In this document: positions 54,722 through 56,317 of the stretch, one piece after another | How the letters are laid out: each line of letters begins with the position of its first letter | How positions within the stretch are numbered: the first letter of the stretch is position 1 | Assembly (NCBI RefSeq): GCF_014204915.1 | Contig: NZ_JACHMH010000001.1 | Span: 124,001 to 188,000 of the forward strand | Direction: 5' to 3' | DNA from: Crossiella cryophila | GTDB taxonomy: Bacteria > Actinomycetota > Actinomycetes > Mycobacteriales > Pseudonocardiaceae | Length of the DNA: 64,000 nt | The notes under the pieces: generated by a model | Seen by the model: only the letters and a program-made list of their open reading frames with translations | The model's database searches: none | What the model was told of the DNA's origin: nothing | Made by a program: the position numbers and the translations under genes

Positions 54722-55030
54722 TCAGCTCGCGAGCAACTCGTTGTAGGCGAGCAGCGCGGGCGCGGTGCGGGATGCCTCGAAGTCGATCACCTCGTGGCGG
54801 ACCACTCGGCGCAGCTTGAAGGGGTCGGTGGCCAGGATGGCGTCCAGGTGACCGCGCACCATGGGGCGGGTGACGATCAGCCGGTCATGCCGGGCACCCA
54901 GGGTCCGGCAACGGCCGGAGAGCAGGAAGTTGCCTGCCGCGTACTGCCGGTCGAGCCAAGCTGCATGCTCCGGCAGTACCAAATCAACCTCGTCGGTCGA
55001 GACGGTGTAGTTCAGCAGCACGATGTACAT
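54722..55030 (-). CDS. YCII-domain protein
   Basis: Small protein of 102 aa with the ferredoxin-like YCII fold: YIVLLNYTVSTDEVDLVLP, the conserved HAAWLDRQYAAGNFLLSG (His/Asp pair of the domain) and AILATDPFKLRR. YciI proteins often act in aromatic catabolism or as dehalogenase-like enzymes, mostly uncharacterised. A CCCCCTAGCGGGGG-type palindrome lies 70-85 bp upstream. Confidence 0.85.
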   Translation of the reverse strand: MYIVLLNYTVSTDEVDLVLPEHAAWLDRQYAAGNFLLSGRCRTLGARHDRLIVTRPMVRGHLDAILATDPFKLRRVVRHEVIDFEASRTAPALLAYNELLAS

Positions 55031-55154: not shown

Positions 55155-55182
55155 GTTCGGCCGAACCGTGATGGTCTAGGAT
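55155..55182 (+). promoter_or_regulatory. trpS leader promoter with overlapping palindrome
   Basis: TAGGAT (55177-55182) is a good -10, 7 nt before the leader-peptide ATG, so the leader is probably leaderless. A perfect 12-bp palindrome GTTCGGCCGAAC (55155-55166) covers the -35 region and may be an operator. Confidence 0.5.
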
Positions 55183-55189
55183 GTGCCTC

Positions 55190-55237
55190 ATGCGCTTGAT
55201 GTCCAGTCTTTGGCGGGCCGCCCACCGGCGGCCCTAG
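55190..55237 (+). CDS. trpS leader peptide (15 aa, one Trp)
   Basis: Reading frame MRLMSSLWRAAHRRP, with the Trp codon (55211-55213) immediately before the first stem of the attenuator. The TAG stop follows the second arm of hairpin 1. Short leader peptides with Trp codons control trp genes and trpS in actinomycetes by ribosome-mediated attenuation. Confidence 0.75.
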   Translation: MRLMSSLWRAAHRRP

Positions 55238-55288
55238 TCACGCGCACCCATCCTGACCACAGGCCGCCGCTGCGAGGCGGCCTGTGGT
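55214..55288 (+). promoter_or_regulatory. trpS ribosome-mediated attenuator
   Basis: Segment 1 (GGGCCGCC, 55215-55222) pairs with segment 2 (GGCGGCCC, 55227-55234). Segment 3 (55256-55268) pairs with segment 4 (55276-55288) as a 13-bp terminator-like hairpin. Segment 2 can instead pair with segment 3 (GGCGGCC with GGCCGCC, 55262-55268), which would break the 3:4 hairpin. A ribosome stalled at the Trp codon would cover segment 1 and favour 2:3, allowing read-through into trpS. Confidence 0.75.
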
Positions 55289-55345
55289 GTATGTGCAGCA
55301 CATCCCGGTCCCGCGGCGGCGCACTAACCCGCGGGGAGACCCTCG

Positions 55346-56317
55346 ATGACCCAGTTCTCCGGCATCCAGCCGACCGGCCTGACCCACCTCGGCAACTACC
55401 TCGGCGCGCTCCGGCAGTGGGCGCTGCGGCACGGTCCGGATGATCTTTTCTGCGTTGTTGACCTGCATGCGATGACCATTCGGCACAACCCGAACGTGTT
55501 GCGAGCCCGTGCCAGAGAGCAACTGGCGATGCTCATCGCGGCCGGCGTGAATCCGGACATCGCGTGCGTTTTCACCCAATCGGACCTCATCGAGGAGCAC
55601 GGCGCCCTGACCTGGGTGCTGGAGTGCGTGGTGTCCTACGGCGAGCTGGCCCGGATGACCCAGTTCAAGGAGAAGGCCAAGGGACAGGACGGCGTCCGGG
55701 CCGGGTTGTTCACCTACCCGGTGCTGATGGCCGCGGACATCCTGCTGCACGGCGCGGACGCGGTGCCGGTCGGCGATGATCAGCGGCAGCACCTGGAACT
55801 GGCCCGCACGCTGGCAAAACGCTTCAACGCGAGCTACGGCGAGGTGCTGACCGTGCCCAGGGCGGTGACCCCGGCCGTCGGCGCGCGGGTGGCCGACCTG
55901 GCCGCGCCGGAGCGGAAGATGTCCAAGTCCAGCGGCGACCAGTCCGGCACCGTGCTGGTGATGGATCCGCCGGAACTGGTCCGCCGCAAGATCATGCGCG
56001 CGGTGACCGACCAGATCGGCGAGGTCCGGCACGACCCGGAGCACCAGCCGGGCGTGACCAACCTGCTGGACATCCTCGGCGCCTGCACCGGCGCGGATCC
56101 GCGGCTGCTGGCCGGGGAGATCCGCGGCTACGCGGAGCTGAAGGAGCGGACCGCGGAGGCGGTGATCGAGGAGTTGCGGCCGGTGCGCGAGGGCACCACC
56201 GCGCTGCTGGCGGATCCGGCCGAACTGGACCAGATCCGCGCGCACGGCGCGGAACGGGCCAGGGCCCGCTGCCGGCACCGGCTGGACGCGGTGCTGAAGG
56301 TCACCGGTCTGCGGTGA
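55346..56317 (+). CDS. trpS: Tryptophanyl-tRNA synthetase
   Basis: Class I synthetase of 323 aa that charges tRNA-Trp. HIGH-type motif GLTHLGNYLGAL (about residues 11-22), Trp-site region CVVDLHAMTI, VPVGDDQRQHLELAR and KMSKS motif ERKMSKSSGD. ATG 55346 has GGGGAG upstream. It is preceded by a Trp-codon leader and attenuator; attenuation-controlled auxiliary TrpRS genes linked to indolmycin resistance are known in Streptomyces, so this may be an inducible copy. Confidence 0.95.
   Translation: MTQFSGIQPTGLTHLGNYLGALRQWALRHGPDDLFCVVDLHAMTIRHNPNVLRARAREQLAMLIAAGVNPDIACVFTQSDLIEEHGALTWVLECVVSYGELARMTQFKEKAKGQDGVRAGLFTYPVLMAADILLHGADAVPVGDDQRQHLELARTLAKRFNASYGEVLTVPRAVTPAVGARVADLAAPERKMSKSSGDQSGTVLVMDPPELVRRKIMRAVTDQIGEVRHDPEHQPGVTNLLDILGACTGADPRLLAGEIRGYAELKERTAEAVIEELRPVREGTTALLADPAELDQIRAHGAERARARCRHRLDAVLKVTGLR

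Follow-up and report, generated by a model that had tools for sequence, protein, structure and literature searches.

A probable tryptophan-sensing, ribosome-mediated attenuator upstream of the auxiliary trpS gene of Crossiella cryophila

Attenuation is established for the trp leader of Escherichia coli. Its ribosome-mediated transcriptional form reportedly also controls an auxiliary, antibiotic-resistant trpS, the trpRS1 gene of Streptomyces coelicolor, in a case described by Vecchione and Sello in 2010. TrpRS1 is listed as indolmycin-resistant in the accessible part of PMC9437257. According to the accessible text of PMC8079986, RNA-seq of S. lividans TK24 revealed a trpL2-trpS attenuator with a leaderless leader frame (MMTRTCTQLWRAA, with the motif LWRAA), two hairpins and no U-rich stretch. 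The Streptomyces trpS parallel invoked by the original prediction for the locus studied here was therefore apt. Seliverstov 2005 (PMC1262725, as far as its accessible part goes) predicted attenuators for trpS2 of S. avermitilis and for actinobacterial trp operons. A literature search by title retrieved none on trpS leaders of Pseudonocardiaceae, most subscription papers being outside its reach.

Here we analyse the leader of a trpS gene in the window, a stretch of 64,000 nucleotides of C. cryophila DNA. From comparative sequence analysis we consider it very probable (roughly 0.85) that this leader attenuates an auxiliary trpS in response to Trp and by way of the ribosome. The original prediction of a trpS attenuator is supported by our analysis, while the auxiliary status of the gene and two further helices, P0 and a Shine-Dalgarno hairpin, had escaped it.

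Leader anatomy and the auxiliary trpS gene

All leader features lie on the forward strand, and positions are those of the window. A -10 box (TAGGAT, 55177-55182), identified from the sequence and from the spacing of TANNNT in relatives, precedes a leader ORF of 15 codons (MRLMSSLWRAAHRRP, 55190-55237), which opens with the ATG at 55190 and ends with a TAG stop at 55235-55237. Transcription would start at 55190, i.e. the leader frame is probably leaderless. Its single Trp codon (TGG, 55211-55213) is located directly before segment 1, and the LWRAA of the leader peptide sits at hairpin 1. Four segments are delimited by inverted repeats: segment 1 (GGGCCGCC, 55215-55222) pairs with segment 2 (GGCGGCCC, 55227-55234) in 8/8 bp, segment 3 (ACCACAGGCCGCC, 55256-55268) pairs with segment 4 (GGCGGCCTGTGGT, 55276-55288) in 13/13 bp, and an alternative 2:3 pairing of 8 bp is offered by the complementarity of CGGCGGCC (55226-55233) to GGCCGCCG (55262-55269). 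The leader frame, both hairpins and the 2:3 complementarity are thus borne out where they had been placed. Hairpin 3:4 presumably serves as the terminator; no T-run longer than 1 occurs where segment 4 ends, hence the U-tract of a classical intrinsic terminator is absent, as had been claimed.

The minimum free energy (MFE) structure and covariation (see below) add two helices to this layout. P0, a basal stem, has its 5' strand inside the leader ORF (55191-55200) and its 3' strand in the linker that follows (55237-55246), 55191-55195 being paired with 55242-55246 and 55197-55200 with 55237-55240. Hairpin 5:6, also found as a duplex, is formed by segment 5 (55307-55319) and segment 6 (55329-55341), and its 3' arm holds the putative Shine-Dalgarno (SD) sequence of trpS (GGGGAGA, 55333-55339). 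The attenuator had been called a complete four-segment one; the four segments are there, "complete" does not apply, since P0 and 5:6 were left out. The predicted folding energy of the RNA of 55190-55345 is -79.3 kcal/mol, compared to -68.0 kcal/mol (sd 3.9) for shuffled sequences, 1/200 of which were as low. The four-segment layout, defined as a hairpin of at least 8 bp followed by a hairpin of at least 10 bp with a 2:3 complementarity of at least 7 bp, occurred in 0/2000 dinucleotide shuffles of 55215-55309.

The gene downstream (55346-56317, forward strand) encodes a tryptophanyl-tRNA synthetase (TrpRS) of 323 amino acids (TIGR00233, 274 bits; cutoff 176.75), whose nearest named relatives among those found are from Crossiella sp. 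(95% and 89% identity). It is one of two trpS genes in the C. cryophila genome (10.06 Mb, one contig); the other, at contig positions 1924790-1925752, is 48% identical to it. The seven genomes that were taken as Streptomyces carry two TrpRS apiece, and the leader-bearing one is not the copy that shares 68-71% identity with the housekeeping enzyme of Crossiella. When 52 TrpRS are placed in a tree (midpoint-rooted for drawing only), the auxiliary enzymes, those of the Crossiella family together with the Streptomyces-type ones, are separated from the housekeeping enzymes by a branch with 100/98 support, and four actinobacterial outgroup rows fall on the auxiliary side. The TrpRS of the window groups with the leader-bearing Streptomyces-type enzymes, apart from the housekeeping TrpRS. 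As both the tree and the identities split in this way, the attenuated gene is the second, non-housekeeping trpS and can be regarded as an auxiliary one, as in the published Streptomyces case.

The surroundings of trpS were also inspected. An adjoining indolmycin gene cluster was considered and discarded as far as the four neighbours examined go, which encode a YCII-like protein, a Nudix hydrolase, TypA and a histidine kinase. The small YCII-like gene (54722-55030, reverse strand; Pfam score 20.2 bits, below the cutoff of 24) is divergent from trpS, and several relatives have antisense frames resembling it ahead of trpS, which makes a conserved neighbourhood possible. In five Streptomyces-like assemblies no more than 461-1296 bp separate the start of the contig from the auxiliary trpS downstream, which suggests a repeat beside the gene.

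Conservation, covariation and distribution

Within a sample of 200 genomes of the family, a score of 350 bits or more marked 101 matches as auxiliary-type trpS, and the upstream regions of all 101 were analysed. Every one of them contains a short Trp-containing leader frame that ends 140-70 nt before the aligned trpS start, with two adjacent Trp codons (WW) in 91 and a single one in 10. The 1:2 hairpin (at least 5 bp; range 5-10 bp) and the 3:4 hairpin (at least 6 bp; range 6-13 bp) are likewise present in 101/101, and 2:3 complementarity of at least 7 bp in 97/101; conservation of the leader frame and of 2:3 in relatives, on which the original prediction had staked itself, is therefore found. 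In 98/101 a leader start codon follows the first base of TANNNT at 12-14 nt, as against 2/202 for the other two frames, a spacing that supports the leaderless status proposed earlier; the three upstream regions in which this distance yielded no start codon of the leader belong to one genus. Among 30 other trpS upstream regions, none of the 25 housekeeping ones has a Trp frame ending 140-70 nt before the trpS start, and all five of a third TrpRS clade have one. T-runs after segment 4 are variable: at least 4 in 27/101 (6/25 genera), and fewer than 4 in 74/101, Crossiella among them.

A third TrpRS clade of the family (N-terminus like TGFTPSGNLHLGNY) was encountered in five sequences, and in 5/5 a leader frame ends with GWWRP, AWWRP or GWWRL about 130-140 nt upstream; Trp leaders are consequently not confined to the auxiliary clade. 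A further recurrent motif, GGYGG, precedes trpS in 83/101 (29.8 expected), 81 of these 83 being located 24-36 nt from the start. It was considered as an extra copy of segment 2 or 4, an idea that was dropped, as inspection by eye places it on the 5' side of 5:6, at the apex of the hairpin.

The pairing of segments was assessed by comparing the interaction energy of partners from the same genus with that of partners from foreign genera (25 genera; two sequences with no clear trpS start codon were omitted from part of these tests, that of 5:6 included, leaving 99/101). According to this test, two more helices covary between genera. For P0, in which the opening codons of the leader pair with the linker, and with the segments set by position, own partners are favoured by -2.49 kcal in 22/25 genera (p 4e-6); shuffled linkers gave -0.51 (sd 0.47; 0/40 as strong) and an upstream control stretch +0.09. 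A fixed linker counted from the Trp codon (W+24 to W+46) retained the signal (-2.11, 19/25), and a linker taken from W+33, which starts within the P0 strand, gave +0.28 (9/25). For 5:6, i.e. the stretch after segment 4 and the SD region, the value is -2.97 kcal in 22/25 genera (p 4e-6), with -0.46 (sd 0.35; 0/40 as strong) for shuffled arms and 0.33 and 0.04 for two control pairings. A narrower segment 5 yielded -2.89 in 18/25 genera (p 1.3e-3), which misses the Bonferroni limit for 55 pairs. The same 5:6 test on housekeeping trpS gave -0.25 in 4/9 genera, and in the seven genera shared by both types the auxiliary value was -3.81 (7/7) versus -0.81 (3/7) for housekeeping trpS, the 5' region of which was a fixed 54 nt. 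Segment 5 showed no favourable covariation with either segment 1 or segment 3.

Covariation of the four segments, proposed as a check along with the original prediction, was computed and gives little, because the cores hardly vary. The near-invariant core of 2:3 carries no covariation signal (p 0.28), nor does 1:2 with arms set by position (+0.15 kcal, 10/25, p 0.41; p 0.07 in another run). The flanks of 3:4 are marginal at most (-1.04, 15/25, p 0.03), being within the shuffle range (-0.60, sd 0.30, lowest -1.36). Stronger values obtained for 1:2 and 3:4 are not independent, as arms cut by a hairpin search favour their own pairing by construction. A fixed-column MAFFT alignment of 37/101 rows (up to two per genus; three of the 40 picked were dropped) has 81.6% of its cells paired, compared to 34.6-53.0% when slid; its covariation score was matched by 50/500 shuffles and its count of pairs changed on both sides by 437/500. 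Helices 1:2, 2:3 and 3:4 thus rest on conservation and not on covariation.

R1, a covariance model built on P0, 1:2 and 3:4, finds one strong match in its own genome, the trpS leader site (E 2.4e-10). The next match (E 0.13; contig positions 3160758-3160847) has no Trp leader and is followed by an ORF with no TrpRS match, and it was taken as a chance hit. R1 matches occur in 93/296 genomes of the class (E 0.01) and in 12/296 of the phylum (E 0.001), the C. cryophila genome being included in both counts. Among the 43 R1 loci listed, 19 are followed by a synthetase gene (18 by a TrpRS according to BLAST, one more by trpS), 19 by a TrpE-sized ORF (471-498 amino acids; 306 in one case) and 5 by neither. 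Three of the 19 TrpE-sized ORFs were checked over their first 400 residues and proved to be chorismate-binding proteins of the anthranilate/aminodeoxychorismate synthase type, with scores below the curated cutoffs. Since R1 loci precede TrpE-sized ORFs, and trpL1, which lies before trpE in S. lividans, is a matching WWW leader in the accessible part of PMC8079986, trpE attenuators seem to be the nearest relatives of the Crossiella trpS element. The strength of 5:6 is similar in the two types outside the family (mean z -0.86 in 18 TrpE-type and -0.83 in 18 trpS-type leaders of other genera), compared to -1.31 in 99 of the family. Because TrpE-type leaders show similar strength, and the correlation with T-runs is weak, the SD hairpin was abandoned as a mark of U-less trpS leaders only.

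Proposed mechanism and alternative explanations

We propose that the leader reports the charging of tRNA-Trp. When tRNA-Trp is charged, the ribosome would reach the stop codon (55235) and cover segment 2, hairpin 3:4 would form and expression would stop. When it is uncharged, owing to Trp starvation or an inhibitor of TrpRS, the ribosome would stall at 55211-55213 and mask segment 1, keeping P0 open, and segment 3 would be captured by segment 2 before segment 4 is made. Should the leader not be translated, P0, 1:2 and 3:4 could all form, which would likewise be an OFF state. After transcription of the linker, P0 is expected to sequester the leaderless start region, in which case the first ribosome would decide the outcome. 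Hairpin 5:6 may keep trpS translation low and, in the U-tract-less Crossiella leader, may account for some of the OFF state.

The computed energies bear on the order of these events. In Crossiella the 2:3 region alone is weaker than 3:4 alone (-19.2 vs -28.9 kcal/mol), and at equilibrium 3:4 has a probability of 0.99 in the stalled state; across the sample 2:3 alone is the stronger in 57/101, and the probability of 3:4 falls below 0.5 in 6/101. That the equilibrium preference for 3:4 makes the switch doubtful was entertained and given up, because the E. coli trp leader, put through the same calculation, gives the same result (3:4 probability 0.90 in the stalled state), so that the calculation has no discriminating power. 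Since the equilibrium favours 3:4 in both leaders, folding kinetics must decide, and 2:3 would have to act before segment 4 is made. The E. coli control also offsets the loss of independent covariation support for 1:2 and 3:4, hence our estimate for the attenuator was kept; the case for it rests on conservation, promoter spacing and the published parallels.

Two versions of the Trp attenuator differ in what 5:6 does. Transcription attenuation by segments 1-4, combined with 5:6 as a constitutive damper of translation, is the version that we regard as reasonably probable. It fits both the covariation of 5:6 and the SD accessibility, which is predicted to be unchanged, and the auxiliary-trpS case is termed transcriptional attenuation in the title of Vecchione and Sello 2010; against it, T-runs at the presumed terminator are shorter than 4 in Crossiella and in 74/101 overall. 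A mainly translational output, in which stalling alters access to the SD through 5:6 and 3:4 is no terminator in Crossiella, would account for the missing U-tract and for a covarying helix over the SD in 22/25 genera that gives no signal in housekeeping trpS, and weaker 5:6 hairpins do tend to go with longer T-runs across the 25 genera (Spearman 0.42, p 0.038, no phylogenetic correction). We nevertheless find this version unlikely: among 55 segment pairs neither segment 5 nor segment 6 has a covarying alternative partner, the predicted SD accessibility is nearly equal for both ribosome positions, and 5:6 is similarly strong in TrpE-type leaders and hence no peculiarity of U-less trpS. Upon stalling, the predicted accessibility rises by more than 0.2 in 1/101 and drops by more than 0.2 in 5/101. 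Release of the SD by 2:3 formation, as a simple thermodynamic switch, was accordingly rejected, and since no opening is predicted when 2:3 forms, the SD hairpin should be either a constant damper or part of a translational output by an unseen route. A tentative generalization, which we put forward as a possibility on the weaker side, is that actinobacterial trpS (and TrpE-type) attenuators have two checkpoints, a one-shot leaderless choice between 2:3 and 3:4, with P0 shutting the start region behind the first ribosome, and a separate SD-blocking 5:6 that evolution has maintained, and that U-less lineages such as Crossiella may rely mainly on translation control.

Readings other than a Trp attenuator fare much worse. 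Synthetase genes of Firmicutes use T-boxes (PMC1262725, accessible part), which makes a T-box, or another leader that binds tRNA or a ligand and is not read by a ribosome, worth considering; it is very improbable here, as Rfam 15, searched with hits allowed to E 1, recognizes no T-box between 54000 and 57000 and in-frame Trp codons are found at promoter spacing. The same search returned just mir-6790 and EAV_LTH in that interval, far below the gathering score and outside the leader. The chance that the hairpins are mere products of base composition is slighter still: a high G+C content does favour strong hairpins (the shuffles themselves reach -68 kcal/mol), but the layout was absent from all 2000 shuffles, is conserved in 101/101 and is accompanied by the covarying P0 and 5:6, so the comparison contradicts a fortuitous origin with no regulatory role.

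Comparison with known attenuators

The Crossiella element shares with the E. coli trp leader the logic of 1:2 plus 3:4 versus 2:3 and the Trp codons near hairpin 1. It differs in that the E. coli leader has a U-tract after 3:4 and controls biosynthesis, not trpS; in addition, the E. coli 2:3 region alone is stronger than 3:4 alone (-15.6 vs -12.0), the reverse of the Crossiella order. With the case of Vecchione and Sello (2010) it would have in common an auxiliary trpS under ribosome-mediated attenuation; Streptomyces-like genomes were used instead for comparing leaders. In Crossiella the leader frame crosses segment 2 before it ends, whereas in the Streptomyces-type sequences compared the stop lies in the loop of hairpin 1.

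Published predictions offer further points of contact. The triple gGCC-rGCy-GGCC common to antiterminator and terminator, and the UGG codons of the leader, recall the attenuators in the accessible part of Seliverstov 2005 (PMC1262725), the trp-operon members of which differ by poly-U after the terminators and by two or three leader UGG codons. The accessible text on trpL2-trpS of S. lividans (PMC8079986) describes the closest counterpart, with a leaderless one-Trp leader ORF (MMTRTCTQLWRAA there; MRLMSSLWRAAHRRP in Crossiella, probably leaderless by its spacing), two hairpins, no uridine-rich sequence and a monocistronic trpS. That text makes no mention of P0 or 5:6, and neither P0 nor a Shine-Dalgarno hairpin is described in the accessible parts of related published work, which is weak evidence of absence.

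A Trp attenuator that had been studied, or just predicted, in a few Streptomyces accompanies every auxiliary-type trpS examined in the family (101/101). The new part is the pair of conserved helices, P0 and 5:6, both open to direct testing, and the natural variation of the U-tract in similar surroundings (T-runs of at least 4 in 27/101) provides a series for studying how U-less attenuators stop expression. Ribosome-mediated attenuation of auxiliary trpS is already known in Streptomyces, and it is this kind of control that the Crossiella case very probably joins.
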